A stretch of 64,000 nucleotides of DNA. Source: Tetragenococcus osmophilus. GTDB taxonomy: Bacteria; Bacillota; Bacilli; Lactobacillales; Enterococcaceae. Shown here piece after piece: positions 3,498 through 10,486 of this stretch (positions are counted from its first letter, which is position 1; each line of letters begins with the position of its first letter). Position numbers and translations under genes: made by a program. The stretch is taken from NCBI RefSeq assembly GCF_003795125.1, contig NZ_CP027783.1, forward strand, positions 1,984,001 through 2,048,000, read 5' to 3'. Under the pieces are notes generated by a model. That model was not told the origin of the DNA and did no database searches. It worked only from the letters and a program-made list of their open reading frames with translations.

Positions 3498-6047
3498 TCA
3501 AAATACATTAAAGAACTTTTTAATTTCAATATATACCAACGAGATTATGGATAAAGCTATTACCCAAATCCATTGTATAAAGTTCAAAGAAACAAAATCG
3601 AGAAGATTTTGTGTCAGAGGTAAAGTCACCAATAGTAAAAGAATTGCTGCACCTACGACAGTTGTTGTAACTAATAAAGTGTTGCTTAGAAAACGTAATT
3701 TAAAAATAGAATGTTCACTACGACAATTATACATATGAATAATTGTCGTCCAACCTAATACAACAAATGTCATTGTTTCTGCGATTGCAATAGAATAAGT
3801 ACGCCCTACAAAAATGGCAATCAAAGTAGCGACTGTAAATACAATAGAGATCTCAATAATCCTCCTTAATAAGCCATTATTAAATATACTTTCGTTTTTC
3901 CTAACTGGATGATTTTTCATAATATCATTTTCAACAGGTTCTACACTTAAACTAAATCCAGGAATACCATCTGCCACAACTTTGATAATTAGTAGATGGA
4001 TAGCTGTTACAGGAGCCCCCCATCCGATAAGCATTGAGATTAATACGATCGTTAAAGCGGAGATATTACACCCTAACATGGCATACAATGATTTACGAAT
4101 ATTACTATATACTCTTCTTCCCTCTTCTACGGCTTGTACGATTGTCGCAAAATTGTCATCTACTATCGTCATATCTGCTGCTTCTTTTGCAACTTCAGTA
4201 CCACCACCCATAGCAATACCTACATCAACTGCTTTTAGTGCCGGTGCGTCGTTGACGCCGTCCCCTGTCATAGCCACTACTTCTTCGTTGTTTTGAAATG
4301 CTTTAACAATTCGAATCTTATCTTCAGGAGATGTACGAGCAAAGACGCGGTAATCACGAATAACTTCTGCTAATTGAGCATCCGAAAATTTGTTCAATTC
4401 AGCCCCTGTCATACCTTTCGTTCCTTCTACTAAAATTCCTACGTCTTCGGCAATTTTTTCAGCCGTAATTAAGTGGTCACCAGTAATCATGATTGGTTGA
4501 ATGCCCGCTTGTTTAGCTATTTCTACAGCTTGATAGCTTTCTTTTCTAGCCGGATCAATGATGCCAACAAAGCCGACGAAATTTAAATGACTTTCCAAGT
4601 CTTCATCTGAAAAATTTTCTGGATAATTTTCAAAAACTTGATAACCTAAACCTAATACACGGTAAGCTTGGTTTGCTAGACTGGTTTGTTCGTCTTGATA
4701 ATATTTTTGGTCTTCTTTGTTGTCAGCTAATTGTAAGCGCTCAAAAGCTCCTTTAGTAATGGAAATATATCTACCATTAACTTCGTATAAGACTGTCATT
4801 TGTTTCCGTGTAGAATCAAACGGGATTTCATAAATCTTATTGAAACCTTGAGCCAGTTTATATAATTCTTCCTTACTGAAGGTATCATCCAATGATTTTT
4901 GAATGGCTAACTCCGTCGGGTTTTTATTGGTCTCTTGATCGTCTATACTACTTGCTAAATAAAAGAGAAAGAGCAAATTATGGTCTTTATTTGATGTTAC
5001 TCGTAGTAAAGATTCATTAGGTTCTTTTAAAGGCGTTACTTGTTTAACGCTCATATTATTTTCTGTAATCGTTCCTGTTTTGTCAGAGCAAATAACCGAA
5101 ACACTACCTATTGTCTCCACAGTGGAAGGTGTTCTTACAATCGTCTTTTTTCTAGCCATATTATTCATACCAACAGCTAAAGAAATAGTCACTACTACGG
5201 GCAATACTTCTGGGATAGCAGCTACCGTCATGGAAATAGCTGTCATTATGCTAGTTTCTAACTGATATCCTTTAATAAAGCCGATAATAATAGCGAATAT
5301 TCCTGCTAATATAGCTACAATGCCTAAACTTTTTCCTAACTTTTGCATTTTTATTTGTAAAGGAGCCATATCGGGTTCTTCTTTATTTATTAAATCAGAA
5401 ATTTTACCAATTTCGGTATCTAACCCTGTGTTTATTACAGCTGCTTTAGCATTTCCAGTGACAACTAATGAACCAGAAAAAGTTAAGTCCTTTCGATCGC
5501 CAATAGTGTCATTTTGATTTGTTTGATAATTTTCATCCTTTTCGCTAGGTTCACTTTCTCCCGTTAAAAAAGATTCATCAACAAAGAAATTATTACAGTT
5601 TAATATTTGCGCATCTGCTGGAACACGGTCGCCTAAATTTAACTGAAGAATATCTCCTGGCACAATCTCTGAACTTTTAACTTCTACTACTTCCCCATCT
5701 CTTAGTACTTGGCTTGTAGGTGTGTTCATTTGTTTTAATTCATTCATCGATTTTTCTGCATCTTTTTGTTGCTTAATCGATAAATAAATATTTAAAATGA
5801 CAATCGAAAATATAACAATAGGTTCAGTAAAGTCATCTGGATGTGTTTGAAAAGCAACATAACTAGAAAGAATGGTAGCAAATAATAAAATGATGATAGT
5901 GATATCTTTTAACGCTTCTTTTAAATAAGTTATAAAGCTTTTATTTGTTTGTGTTTTTACTGTGTTATAACCAAACTTTTCTAGTCGTTTACTAACTTCT
6001 TCTTGTGTAAGGCCCTTATAATTATTTATTTTTTTCTTATTTGCCAT
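3498..6047 (-). CDS. P-type (P2-like) cation-transporting ATPase with altered ion-site residues
   Basis: 849-residue membrane pump that couples ATP hydrolysis to cation export. In order: N-terminal cytosolic domain (1-45), two membrane helices, actuator domain with FLTGESEP (about 165-172), helices with PEVLP in TM4, phosphorylation motif ICSDKTGTIT, nucleotide domain with KGAFER, hinge TGDGVNDAPALK, and C-terminal helices TM5-10. Aligned to the SERCA Ca2+ sites, TM5 keeps Asn (N661) but has Ala664 where Ca2+ pumps have Glu, and TM6 has Lys689 in place of Asn and Ala692 in place of Thr, while Asp693 is kept. The transported ion is therefore unlikely to be bound exactly as in Ca2+ pumps; Na+, K+ or another ion is possible. 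Start at 6047 follows GGGAGG by 8 bases. It has its own promoter and a hairpin leader. Confidence 0.92.
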   Translation of the reverse strand: MANKKKINNYKGLTQEEVSKRLEKFGYNTVKTQTNKSFITYLKEALKDITIIILLFATILSSYVAFQTHPDDFTEPIVIFSIVILNIYLSIKQQKDAEKSMNELKQMNTPTSQVLRDGEVVEVKSSEIVPGDILQLNLGDRVPADAQILNCNNFFVDESFLTGESEPSEKDENYQTNQNDTIGDRKDLTFSGSLVVTGNAKAAVINTGLDTEIGKISDLINKEEPDMAPLQIKMQKLGKSLGIVAILAGIFAIIIGFIKGYQLETSIMTAISMTVAAIPEVLPVVVTISLAVGMNNMARKKTIVRTPSTVETIGSVSVICSDKTGTITENNMSVKQVTPLKEPNESLLRVTSNKDHNLLFLFYLASSIDDQETNKNPTELAIQKSLDDTFSKEELYKLAQGFNKIYEIPFDSTRKQMTVLYEVNGRYISITKGAFERLQLADNKEDQKYYQDEQTSLANQAYRVLGLGYQVFENYPENFSDEDLESHLNFVGFVGIIDPARKESYQAVEIAKQAGIQPIMITGDHLITAEKIAEDVGILVEGTKGMTGAELNKFSDAQLAEVIRDYRVFARTSPEDKIRIVKAFQNNEEVVAMTGDGVNDAPALKAVDVGIAMGGGTEVAKEAADMTIVDDNFATIVQAVEEGRRVYSNIRKSLYAMLGCNISALTIVLISMLIGWGAPVTAIHLLIIKVVADGIPGFSLSVEPVENDIMKNHPVRKNESIFNNGLLRRIIEISIVFTVATLIAIFVGRTYSIAIAETMTFVVLGWTTIIHMYNCRSEHSIFKLRFLSNTLLVTTTVVGAAILLLLVTLPLTQNLLDFVSLNFIQWIWVIALSIISLVYIEIKKFFNVF

Positions 6048-6065
6048 ACCTAAAACCTCCCTAAC

Positions 6066-6205
6066 AAAAAAAGCCAGGCAAACTAACCATAAAAGCCTAA
6101 GGTTAGTTTGGCTGACTTTTTATAAGACTTATTCCGGCGAATAAATCTTAAGTCCGTTTTATTTATTATATGAGGTATTATTTCACATCTAATTTTTAAG
6201 GTCAA
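6066..6205 (-). promoter_or_regulatory. Promoter and terminator-like hairpin leader of the first P-type ATPase
   Basis: Minus-strand promoter TTGACC (plus 6200-6205), 17-base spacer, AATAAT (plus 6177-6182). The leader first forms a hairpin AAGATTTATTC/GAATAAGTCTT (plus 6124-6149), then a 17-base-arm hairpin (plus arms 6072-6088 and 6101-6117, one mismatched step) followed by seven T, about 20 bases before the start codon's ribosome site. Because the previous gene already has its own terminator at 6239-6278, this second terminator lies between promoter and gene and is probably a transcription attenuator. I do not recognise the ligand. Confidence 0.6.
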
Positions 6206-6238
6206 CACTATTTCGTACTTTACTTACTTTTATGTTAC

Positions 6239-6278
6239 AAAAAAAGACATATGGTGAAATAATCACCATATGTCTTTT
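6239..6278 (-). terminator. Rho-independent terminator of the second P-type ATPase gene
   Basis: Perfect 12-bp stem GACATATGGTGA/TCACCATATGTC with a 5-base loop, extended by A/T pairs and a run of seven T on the minus strand; it is 15 bases beyond the stop codon. Confidence 0.92.
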
Positions 6279-6292
6279 GAACTGTGTCAAAA

Positions 6293-9055
6293 TTACCAAA
6301 TCTTAACGCCAAATAGCTCTTTAATTCCTGATAGGATAAGTGTAGGTAAGGCAGGAATAAATAGAACCATTAGATAAACATATCCATCAAGAGGAGCTGT
6401 ACCCATAACTAAGTTAAAGAATGGGATAATTGTTACTAAGAAGGAGCTAATTCCAGCAAATAAAACAGCAGCCACTAGATATTTATTTTCAAATGGACTT
6501 CTTTCAAATAAAGTTCTTGTACTACGAGCGTCGAAAACGTGCCACAATTGTCCATAAACTAAGGTTAGGAAAGCGACAGTTTGCGCTTGGCTACTAGACA
6601 TACCTTCATGAGCAGCCCAAAGAAATGCTACATATACTAATAGTCCCATAAAGAAACCACGAATTAATACGCGAGACCAAGTATGATTAGCTAATATTGA
6701 TTCGTTTGGATCACGTGGCGATTCTTCCATAATATTTGCTTCAGGCACATCATAACCTAGAGAAAAGGAAGGTACTGCGTCACTGATCATGTTTACCCAT
6801 AGTACCATTAAAGCTGATAAAGTAGGCGTTGCCCCAGGGACATTACCAACTGTTTGAGTGAAAAACAGCAAACCAATCAATATGGACAATACTTCAGCCA
6901 CATTTGTTGTCAATTCATGACGGATAAAGTTTTTAATATTACCATAAATCGTACGTCCGCTTTTAACGGCATTTTCAATGGTTGTAAATTTGTCATCTAA
7001 TAGAACTAAGTCAGCCGAATCTTTCGTTACTTCTGTTCCGGCAACGCCCATTGCAATACCAATGTCTGCAACACGCAGTGCAGGAGCGTCATTAACACCG
7101 TCGCCAGTCATAGCTGTGATTTGACCATAGTTTTGTAATTGTTTAACAATACGTTGTTTATGTTCTGGTGACACACGAGCATAGACATTAGTTTCTTTTA
7201 CCGTTTCATACAATTCATCATCGGACATTTTTTCAATATCTACACCTTTAACAACAGTAGCAGATTTACTATCAACGATGCCTAAGTCATACGCAATAGC
7301 TCGTGCTGTCTTTTCATGGTCACCTGTAATCATAACCACTTCAACATTAGCATTGTGCAACGTTTGAACAGAAACTTTAACTTCTTCACGTGCAGGGTCA
7401 ATAATTCCTGCGACCCCAGTTAAGACAAGAGAATGCTCAAGTGTATCTGTTGTTCCGTTCAAGGCTTCATCTTCAGTAATCTCTTTTTGTCCAACTGCTA
7501 ATGTACGTAAAGCGTCATCGGCATAATCATCTACGATGGATAAAAAGTTGTTTCTTTCTTCTTCTGTCTTGTCAACTTCACCATCTTTTAAAATACCATT
7601 GCTACGGTTGATCATAACATCCGGTGCGCCCTTAGTATACAAGGTATATTTACCATCGTTTTCCTTTACAATGACACTCATCATTTTACGGCTACTTGAA
7701 AAAGGTAGCGTGCGAACAATTTCTTTGTCTTGTTGCAAATCTTCGCGACTAATATTTACTTTCTTCCCTAATACAGTTAAAGCAACTTCAGTCGGAAGTC
7801 CTAGAGGCGTATACTCTCCGTTGTCATTTTCTTGGACGGAAGAATCATTACACAATACGGCGCCATATAAGAAGGCTTTTGATGTAGCGACTGGATCGTC
7901 ATTATCTTGATTTTTAACTTCTCCATTAGGATTGTAACCTAGACCAGTTACTTCATATTTATGGCCATTGGCATAATATTGAACAACGGTCATTTCGTTC
8001 TTAGTTAATGTTCCTGTTTTATCGGAACAAATATAGGAGGTAGCACCTAATGTTTCTACACTATTTAATGACTTAATTAATCCCTTGTTTTTAGCCATAG
8101 CGCTAGCGCCGATGGTTAATACAATAGATAATACAGCCGGTAAAGCATCTGGAATAGAAGCGACTGCTAGTGCAATTGAAGTTGATAGGACAGAACCAAT
8201 CGATGCAAAACTAAGTTCACCTGCTTGAATAATTCCCATAATAAGAGTAAAGATAACAATAATCCCAGAAATGAACATAAGGGTTTTTGTTAGTTTATTA
8301 ACGGTATTTTGTAGAGGAGAAGGTTTTTCTTCAACAGATTCAATCATTTGAGCAATATTACCTAATTCAGTATTTGCCCCTGCTGCAACAACAACGCCAG
8401 TTCCTTGTCCGTTGGAAACAGTAGAACCAGAAAAGCCCATATTGGTTCGGTCACCAAGTTCGACATCTTCACTGATTGCTTCCGTACCCTTTTCAATAGC
8501 GTCAGCTTCCCCAGTTAAATGAGATTCAATGACTTGAAGTTCGTTTACATCTAGCCAACGAACATCTGCTTCAACAAAGTCGCCAACTTGGTTACTTACG
8601 ATGTCGCCAACCACCATTTCGTTAACAGGAATCGTTTGCCACTTCCCGTTACGTAATACCGTAGTGTTTCGGGTATTCATTTCTTTTAGTGCATTTAGAC
8701 TCTTCCGAGCACTAATTTCTTGCCAAAATCCTAGAAATGCATTAATGATAATTAAGATAAAAATAGCTGCTGCTTCATATAGTGACTCATATCCAGTTTC
8801 TAAATTACCTTGAATTTGAATATCATGAAAAGCACTTAATGAAGATAAAACAATTGCTCCCATTAGTACAATGACAATAGGTTCCTTGAAGTTTTTAAGA
8901 AAGACCTTCCAATAAGGGTCCTCTTTTTTTTCAGGTAGTTTATTCTCACCGTATTTTTCACGTTGTTGAGTTACCTTTTCGTCTGTTAACCCATTCTGTA
9001 AATCAACCTGAAAGTCCTCTATGACTTGATCTTTTGTTTGTTGATAGAGTTTCAC
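6293..9055 (-). CDS. P-type Ca2+-like cation-transporting ATPase
   Basis: About 920 residues, P2-type pump. Seen in order: N-terminal cytosolic domain, TM1-2, actuator domain with SHLTGEADA, TM4 with PDALP, phosphorylation motif ICSDKTGTLT, nucleotide domain with YTKGAPDVM, hinge MTGDGVNDAPALR, TM5 with NVAEV (N718, E721) and TM6 with VNMISDA (N755, D759). These are the residues that bind Ca2+ in SERCA-type pumps, so Ca2+ (or Mn2+) export is the first guess; only the TM4 acidic residue is Asp rather than Glu. The start is taken as GTG at 9055 because AAAGGA lies 8 bases before it; the ATG at 9064 overlaps the ribosome site, and the open frame upstream (to 9124) falls inside the hairpin leader. 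Single-gene transcript with its own promoter and terminator. Confidence 0.92.
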   Translation of the reverse strand: MKLYQQTKDQVIEDFQVDLQNGLTDEKVTQQREKYGENKLPEKKEDPYWKVFLKNFKEPIVIVLMGAIVLSSLSAFHDIQIQGNLETGYESLYEAAAIFILIIINAFLGFWQEISARKSLNALKEMNTRNTTVLRNGKWQTIPVNEMVVGDIVSNQVGDFVEADVRWLDVNELQVIESHLTGEADAIEKGTEAISEDVELGDRTNMGFSGSTVSNGQGTGVVVAAGANTELGNIAQMIESVEEKPSPLQNTVNKLTKTLMFISGIIVIFTLIMGIIQAGELSFASIGSVLSTSIALAVASIPDALPAVLSIVLTIGASAMAKNKGLIKSLNSVETLGATSYICSDKTGTLTKNEMTVVQYYANGHKYEVTGLGYNPNGEVKNQDNDDPVATSKAFLYGAVLCNDSSVQENDNGEYTPLGLPTEVALTVLGKKVNISREDLQQDKEIVRTLPFSSSRKMMSVIVKENDGKYTLYTKGAPDVMINRSNGILKDGEVDKTEEERNNFLSIVDDYADDALRTLAVGQKEITEDEALNGTTDTLEHSLVLTGVAGIIDPAREEVKVSVQTLHNANVEVVMITGDHEKTARAIAYDLGIVDSKSATVVKGVDIEKMSDDELYETVKETNVYARVSPEHKQRIVKQLQNYGQITAMTGDGVNDAPALRVADIGIAMGVAGTEVTKDSADLVLLDDKFTTIENAVKSGRTIYGNIKNFIRHELTTNVAEVLSILIGLLFFTQTVGNVPGATPTLSALMVLWVNMISDAVPSFSLGYDVPEANIMEESPRDPNESILANHTWSRVLIRGFFMGLLVYVAFLWAAHEGMSSSQAQTVAFLTLVYGQLWHVFDARSTRTLFERSPFENKYLVAAVLFAGISSFLVTIIPFFNLVMGTAPLDGYVYLMVLFIPALPTLILSGIKELFGVKIW

Positions 9056-9080
9056 TTTCTTCATCCTTTCTAGTTTATTT

Positions 9081-9217
9081 ATAAAAAAGCATACAAAAGC
9101 GCAAGCAAACAAGGTCTTCCTCACCCTTGGAAGACATGTCTTGAAAGCTTGCGCTCAACCTGTTTGCTTATTCGTATAACACTTATATACTATAGCAAAA
9201 AGTATTCTTTTTGTCTA
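9081..9217 (-). promoter_or_regulatory. Promoter and riboswitch-like leader of the second P-type ATPase
   Basis: Promoter on the minus strand: TAGACA (plus 9212-9217), 17-base spacer, TATAGT (plus 9189-9194). In the leader, segment A (plus 9158-9169) can pair with A' (9103-9115) with one bulged base, and segment B (9147-9156) can pair with B' (9097-9106). A' and B' share 9103-9106, so the two pairings exclude each other. Between them is a 7-bp hairpin (9114-9120 with 9129-9135, loop 9121-9128). The B-B' stem is followed by an interrupted T-run (TTTTGTATGCTTTTTT). This is the layout of a switch between terminator and antiterminator. Ligand unknown. Confidence 0.55.
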
Positions 9218-9283
9218 GGAACTTTCTTTTTTTACTAGAAAATTCAATGTTCGTCTAATAAGCAAATATAAAAGCAGTTCCTC

Positions 9284-10486
9284 TTAATTTTCTTTAATGG
9301 AGCCGATTAAGGCTTCTTTATTAGCTGGTGGGTTCGCTAATAAATTACGAACATCGTCTAGGTCTACAGATACATTCCAAAGTAAAACACCAGCTAAACG
9401 ATCTTCTTTTAAGAAATAAACGATCGTTCCGTTGTCTCTGGTATCAAATACTTGTTCTAAGTTTGGATCTAATGTACCAATAGCTTGCCAAGAAATCGAG
9501 AATATGTTGGAGTAAAAGTAAGGTGTATGAGTATAAGCGACATTCGCACCTGCCATATTTCTTCCTACTTGTTCACCAGAATTTCTAGCATGGTCCACGT
9601 GTTCAATTCTTTGATACCCTAATATTTTGTCAGGGTAATAAGCAATATCTCCTGCAGACCAAATAGCTGGATCACTTGTTTGCAGATACTCGTTAACTTC
9701 TACACCATCGCCGTCTAATTTTAGACCGCTAGCTTTAGCTAAAGCTATTCTTGGAGAAACACCAAGTCCTATAACGACAGTGTCGCCTGAAATTTGTGAG
9801 CCATCATCTAAAGTAACGACAAGCTGGTCACCATCTCGTTGATAGGATTCGGCTTTTTTGCCATTTATCAAATGCACGCCATTTTTTTTGAATGCATCTT
9901 CATATTCTGCAGTAATAGCTTCAGGAAATTGATTTTCACCTAAAGTATTTTCTAAATAAACCATGGTAACTTTAGTATCATTTTGTGCGAGTGCTGCTGC
10001 AACTTCACTTCCAATGTAGCCACCACCTACGATGATGACGTGTTTATTATTTCCACTGAATTGGCGTAGTTTGCGATAATCAGACCAATCTCTAAAAACA
10101 ATTGCATGAGGATCATCGGGGCCATTGATGGCCATTGGTTCCCCGCCTGTAGCAAGTAGCAACTGATTATAATGGACAACTACATCATCACCTAATTGAA
10201 TCTTTTTGTTATTGCGATCAATTTTATTTACCGTCGTGTTAAATCGAAAGGTTACATTCGGCTGGTCTTCTGCCCCGATTCGAATGTTTTCTTCCGTAAA
10301 TTCATCGTCTAACCACAATTTTTTACTTAAAGCAGGACGTTCATAAGGAACATCTGCATCTTTTGAAACCATAAGAATAGAGCCATTTGGGTCTTCTTGG
10401 CGTATGCCTTTTACTGCATAGCCTGCGACCATTCCGCCACCGACAATGACATAGTCATAGTTATTATTATTTTCTAAGTTACTCAT
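9284..10486 (-). CDS. FAD/NAD(P)-dependent oxidoreductase (ferredoxin/rubredoxin-reductase type)
   Basis: 400 residues with two dinucleotide-binding folds: FAD motif YVIVGGGMVAGYAV (about 11-24), 'YERPALSKKLW' after it, 'LLLATGGEP' (about 110), NAD(P) motif VIIVGGGYIGSEVAAAL (about 150) and FAD motif 2 WSAGDIAYYP (about 275). 'VPYERPALSK' and the absence of a CxxxxC or a single redox Cys after the first motif place it with the ferredoxin/rubredoxin reductase and AIF-like group rather than with thioredoxin or lipoamide reductases. The electron partner is not encoded next door. Ribosome site GGAGGG 6 bases before ATG. Neighbours are a P-type ATPase downstream and an aldehyde dehydrogenase upstream, each with its own terminator, so it is probably a single-gene unit. 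Confidence 0.87.
   Translation of the reverse strand: MSNLENNNNYDYVIVGGGMVAGYAVKGIRQEDPNGSILMVSKDADVPYERPALSKKLWLDDEFTEENIRIGAEDQPNVTFRFNTTVNKIDRNNKKIQLGDDVVVHYNQLLLATGGEPMAINGPDDPHAIVFRDWSDYRKLRQFSGNNKHVIIVGGGYIGSEVAAALAQNDTKVTMVYLENTLGENQFPEAITAEYEDAFKKNGVHLINGKKAESYQRDGDQLVVTLDDGSQISGDTVVIGLGVSPRIALAKASGLKLDGDGVEVNEYLQTSDPAIWSAGDIAYYPDKILGYQRIEHVDHARNSGEQVGRNMAGANVAYTHTPYFYSNIFSISWQAIGTLDPNLEQVFDTRDNGTIVYFLKEDRLAGVLLWNVSVDLDDVRNLLANPPANKEALIGSIKEN

Follow-up and report, generated by a model that had tools for sequence, protein, structure and literature searches.

The Na+-I riboswitch class was described by White et al. in 2022. Published members are selective for Na+, reject alkaline earth or divalent ions and act as ON switches, and one of the probed members comes from a gene named mgtA (PMC9337991). 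An ion riboswitch of another family, the Mn2+-sensing yybP-ykoY RNA, lies upstream of the P-type pump YaoB of Lactococcus lactis, which is thought to export the sensed ion (PMC11477304). At pH 8, L. lactis shows increased levels of four P-type ATPases, and the passages considered make no mention of a riboswitch (PMC13379511). We analyzed the leader of a P-type ATPase gene in a 64-kb stretch of Tetragenococcus DNA, hereafter the window. This leader shares with the Na+-I class the aptamer sequence, the P1/P2 structure and a site before an ion transporter gene, as well as a terminator that excludes the aptamer and, by prediction, an ON polarity. It can be likened by annotation to the Lactococcus garvieae member (53 mgtA), which belongs to the same class and precedes a gene with a cation-pump annotation (PMC9337991). 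The YaoB riboswitch belongs to a different RNA family, whose model does not match the window leader. A strong outer helix (A-A') distinguishes the leader of the window, together with one near-identical relative (L059), from the Na+-I class.

An Rfam scan of the whole window returned one RNA family at its gathering threshold. This was RF03071, the Na+-I (DUF1646) riboswitch, on the minus strand of the leader (Table 1; E = 3.1e-6 for 64 kb). The alignment covers model positions 1-55 of 55 with an accuracy of 0.99, and the conserved GGUUG, UUUCAAGA and GGGUG segments and the P1 and P2 hairpins are all found. The margin is small, as the leader scores only 5 bits over the cut-off. It is the sole RF03071 match in the Tetragenococcus genome. 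Because the match exceeds gathering, we interpret the leader as a switch RNA of a published class; judged from its sequence, the switch is probably real but not new. The preliminary description had recognized the plan of an ion-sensing attenuator with two exclusive pairings, which agrees with the RF03071 match and the overlapping helices. It had also considered an undescribed class, and the RF03071 match is an Rfam hit of the kind that it had itself named as refuting this idea. A new riboswitch class was ruled out on these grounds. Its view that the leader is not a yybP-ykoY Mn2+ riboswitch was borne out. The covariance model for that family gave no gathering match in the window and none at E values up to 1 in 8990-9300, and we discarded this identity.

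Table 1. Features of the ATPase gene and its leader, in window coordinates.
Feature	Position	Strand	Basis or remark
Promoter-like site (-35 TAGACA 9217-9212, TG, -10 TATAGT 9194-9189)	9189..9217	(-)	Consensus match only
A, 5' strand of outer helix	9159..9169	(-)	Pairs with A' by strand indexing
Na+-I riboswitch aptamer (RF03071)	9115..9160	(-)	45.6 bits, gathering 40.5
Aptamer P1	UUG 9158-9156 with CAA 9143-9141; AGC 9155-9153 with GCU 9148-9146	(-)	RF03071 alignment
B, likely terminator 5' arm, also part of aptamer P1 and its loop	9147..9156	(-)	Pairing, fold, covariation
Aptamer P2	9135-9129 with 9120-9114	(-)	RF03071 alignment
Aptamer conserved segments CAAGA, GGGUG	within 9115..9160	(-)	RF03071 alignment
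A', 3' strand of outer helix	9103..9114	(-)	Overlaps terminator 3' arm at 9103-9106
B', likely terminator 3' arm	9097..9106	(-)	Pairing, fold, arm covariation
Shine-Dalgarno-like AGAAAGG	9065..9071	(-)	Sequence; relatives compared
P2-type cation ATPase gene, likely start GTG 9055	6293..9055	(-)	Pfam E1-E2_ATPase, Cation_ATPase_N, Cation_ATPase_C
Inverted repeat and U run shortly past ATPase stop	6238..6278	(-)	Read by eye as terminator

The match to a Na+ riboswitch class also bears on the proposal that the leader senses Ca2+, Mn2+ or another ion as an undescribed class and controls a Ca2+/Mn2+ pump. The solved chains nearest to the ATPase are indeed Ca2+-ATPases, the best being lmo0841, which we take to be a Listeria protein. 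Some P-type ATPases are likewise preceded by Mn2+ riboswitches (PMC11477304). The conserved RF03071 core above gathering and the absence of a yybP-ykoY match argue against this proposal, as does the rejection of divalent ions by published members (PMC9337991). We consider such a sensor highly improbable, and the Ca2+/Mn2+-type pump named in the preliminary description found no support.

The leader was delimited by a promoter-like site, from which transcription would start near 9182. Promoter-like sites in 8400-9600 are no commoner than chance (2 found, against a shuffle mean of 3.2), and the promoter call is a weak one; a similar -10 site (TGCTATAGT) is present in the leaders L021, L039 and L094. 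The start codon of the ATPase is likely the GTG behind the Shine-Dalgarno-like sequence, the spacing of which is alike in the near relatives compared. The transcribed strand from 9182 to 9084 folds at -38.4 kcal/mol, compared to a shuffle mean of -22.67 (sd 3; z -5.24), and 0 of 200 shuffles were as good. Indexing the minus-strand leader recovered the B-B' pairing as first proposed, including the four bases that A' and B' have in common and the T-rich sequence that follows, which we resolved into U runs at 9098-9095 and 9088-9083. The A-A' helix was also found at its proposed site, but A and A' had each been drawn one base too long at one end. B-B' is likely an intrinsic terminator, with termination predicted from the pairing and the U runs. 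A consensus terminator scan listed the P2 hairpin (9135-9114) and not B-B', the scan being limited to loops of at most 8 bases. Aptamer and terminator are mutually exclusive because the bases of the terminator 5' arm also supply a P1 strand and its loop in the aptamer. When we folded the growing transcript, an aptamer-like structure with A-A' appeared for transcripts ending at 9104-9100, and the terminator took over once the end reached 9098.

We propose with high confidence that the leader is a Na+-I riboswitch of the transcriptional ON type controlling a P-type ATPase, and that this pump most likely exports Na+ and so closes a feedback loop. Once the polymerase is at about 9104-9100, P1 and P2 of the aptamer would be able to form, joined in this leader by the outer helix A-A'. 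At high Na+, the ion would bind and hold P1, keeping 9147-9156 occupied; B-B' would then be blocked and the pump mRNA completed. At low Na+, the same segment would pair with 9106-9097 and transcription would end in the U runs. Export of Na+ by the pump would close the loop. The ON polarity is expected by analogy with the published mechanism, in which Na+ stabilizes the aptamer (PMC9337991). One detail differs from the Clostridium acetobutylicum kefB member, whose terminator is described as displacing P2 (PMC9337991). In the window leader the terminator 5' arm is instead supplied by a P1 strand, a pairing also available to 28 ATPase leaders.

We examined conservation of the helices by asking whether strands pair better with their own partners than with partners swapped between leaders. 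These tests do not depend on an alignment, and we used them because, in a MAFFT alignment of the leaders, several rows had the terminator 3' arm in the wrong place. The terminator arms of 28 P-type-ATPase leaders (21 distinct arm pairs; 25 leaders at first, 28 after adding L194, L206 and L210) paired at -15.15 kcal/mol with their own partners and -11.45 with swapped ones, and 0 of 5000 shuffles were as good. The corresponding values for P2 (22 distinct) were -9.85 and -6.74 kcal/mol, again with 0 of 5000. The shuffles leave sequence relatedness in place, and the terminator-arm tests on 25 and on 28 leaders take the best-pairing U run, which slightly favors own-partner pairing. Copies of included leaders (L111-L114, L120 and L151) were excluded, as was L100 because no ATPase follows it. 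For A-A' (21 distinct of 24 leaders, with a wrong U run assigned to L125), own partners gave -5.84 and swapped partners -5.20 kcal/mol, and 347 of 5000 shuffles were as good. The outer helix reaches -14.7 in the window and ranges from -0.9 to -10.4 across the other distinct leaders. Among the leaders compared it is strong only in the window and in L059, and it is weaker or absent elsewhere. Of the two pairings first proposed, B-B' alone is conserved, with arms that co-vary; A-A' is not conserved and barely outperforms swapped partners. We rejected A-A' as a conserved antiterminator on the latter result. At most, this outer helix adds reinforcement locally; the pairing that competes with the terminator and is conserved is P1 of the aptamer itself.

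These tests also address whether the leader might be a decayed riboswitch that retains a terminator or hairpin but has lost its ligand response. Such a remnant would fit the dominance of the terminator in the full-length fold, but it does not account for the compensating changes in P2 and in the terminator arms, and among 9 genomes of the genus, 8 have the leader ahead of the ATPase (the ninth, G102, is without a match). We regard decay as exceedingly improbable here. The one leader that looks stranded, L100, lacks the ATPase. At that locus (G058:C46), a Na+-I riboswitch near the ATPase sub-type is followed by what appears by eye to be a remnant of an ATPase start and then by an ABC permease gene. 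The switch at L100 is perhaps stranded and decaying.

We surveyed the class among relatives of Tetragenococcus. RF03071 matches were present in 102 of 105 Enterococcaceae genomes at E <= 0.001 and in 126 of 295 sampled genomes of the order. The leader of L059 (genome G101) differs from that of the window at one position in 160 bases. Gene context was tallied for 110 of the 113 listed Enterococcaceae matches, with G043, G044 and G045 left out. V-type ATPase genes follow 89 of these matches, orthologs of the ATPase of the window follow 14 (6 of these 14 leaders fall below gathering), and 7 precede other genes. Na+/H+-exchanger genes follow four of the 110 (L065, L078, L091 and L107). L104 (G001) precedes a TrkH-type cation transporter gene and then a Na+/H+-exchanger-like gene, L109 a Na+/Ca2+-exchanger-family gene, and L100 an ABC permease gene. 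Downstream genes were checked with Pfam for L024 (V-type), L065 and L078 (exchangers), L100, L104 and L109. Three genomes of the genus (G099, G100 and G103) carry the switch on both the P-type and the V-type pump. The window's own genome has a V-type ATPase subunit I gene (L162, C1:662400-666500) with no Na+-I match or motif nearby.

We inspected 49 further loci from the order, 29 of them high-scoring and 20 chosen for a short ATPase-type match; because of the latter choice, the set is not a fair sample. Four of the 49 precede the ATPase (L191, L194, L206 and L210). The remainder precede V-type ATPase, Na+/H+-exchanger or, by eye, Na+/Ca2+-exchanger-like genes. We also collected 49 named orthologs of the ATPase, 48 of them with upstream sequence. 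The Na+-I motif was found before 16 of the 48, and 4 of these 16 score above gathering. The other 32 lack the motif under a strict pattern, and none of them passes gathering. Pump and switch are therefore not always paired.

The ATPase leaders form a recognizable sub-type within the Enterococcaceae. Ten of the 14 ATPase leaders contain CAAGACAT, which is absent from all 89 V-type leaders; CAAGGAT is present in all 89 V-type leaders and in none of the 14. This divergence would suit a Na+-I descendant with a changed ligand, for instance another monovalent ion, and the discoverers raise the possibility of ligand change in some class members (PMC9337991). Against this reading, the leader retains the segments that make up the core of the Rfam model. 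The L. garvieae member before the gene named mgtA, compared here irrespective of sub-type, binds Na+ with a KD of about 15 mM (PMC9337991). A change of ligand strikes us as very unlikely, and we retain Na+ as the predicted ligand of the window leader.

We then considered which ion the pump moves. The ATPase scores below every curated NCBIfam equivalog cut-off tried, with 583.9 against 798.3 for PMR1, 578.1 against 703.4 for SERCA, 484.1 against 507.05 for PMCA, 458.6 against 645.05 for fungal K/Na and 375.9 against 610.75 for MgtA. These curated models leave the pump ion unassigned. The closest named match is from T. muriaticus DSM 15685 (99%). The set of ion-site residues, numbered from the ATG at 9064, comprises Asp306 in M4 (SERCA Glu309), Asn721 and Glu724 in M5, Asn758, Ser761 and Asp762 in M6, and Gln839 in M8 (SERCA Glu908). 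The SERCA positions were placed by alignment with the solved Ca2+-ATPase chains. A Gln in M8 is also a feature of Na,K-ATPase. In the window's second ATPase, the corresponding residues are Glu, Asn, Ala, Lys, Ala, Asp and Thr. All 17 switch-associated proteins carry the full set, as do 31 of the 33 that lack the switch, the exceptions (L156 and L158) being reading frames with 47 and 24 stops. Because the set occurs in both groups, it is independent of the presence of the switch.

The riboswitch and the shared ion-site residues suggest that the function of the pump is likely Na+ export, a best guess that we make mainly because of the Na+-I switch upstream. The genus Tetragenococcus is halophilic. 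We lean toward the broader view that the ATPases behind switches and their switch-less orthologs, which sequence similarity would name Ca2+ or Mg2+ pumps, constitute a primary Na+ pump family of lactic acid bacteria that shares this ion-site set and that, in Tetragenococcus, an RNA would place under direct control of Na+. When the ligand of a riboswitch is known, it can hint at the ion moved by an unassigned P-type pump. White et al. suggested that transporters annotated for K+ or Mg2+ behind a Na+-I switch might move Na+; what is new beyond that suggestion (PMC9337991) is a delimited family of pumps that have their ion-site residues in common, in bacteria amenable to testing. The question of an undescribed class is answered, and a lead on pump function takes its place.

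The ATPase gene looks monocistronic because of the terminator-like repeat past its stop; an automatic terminator scan of 6000-6330 listed none. We rejected one switch serving both ATPases of the window, as the simplest reading, since this by-eye repeat and a separate promoter-like site lie between the genes. A separate leader, at 6048-6205 on the minus strand, precedes the window's other P-type ATPase gene (3498-6047) and includes a promoter-like site at 6205-6177. Ahead of the start it contains one hairpin and another, long one that resembles a terminator (z -4.96). No Rfam family came near gathering there, the best score being 30.4 bits for a threshold of 79. At L114, a related gene follows a leader related to this one (78% over 156 bases). 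Leaders with a hairpin and U run were also seen before ATPase orthologs that lack the Na+-I motif (L158, L159, L126, L135, L147, L115 and L119), and no regulatory RNA family reached gathering in these seven. They are possibly other sensors for the same pump. The leaders of L158 and L159 have a common core about 40-110 bases before the ATPase start, consisting of ACGCTTCCCC, one base and ATCGGAAACGCTC. When the L159 leader was used as a DNA query against 395 genomes, 2 of them gave matches; one match was identical and perhaps comes from the same organism.
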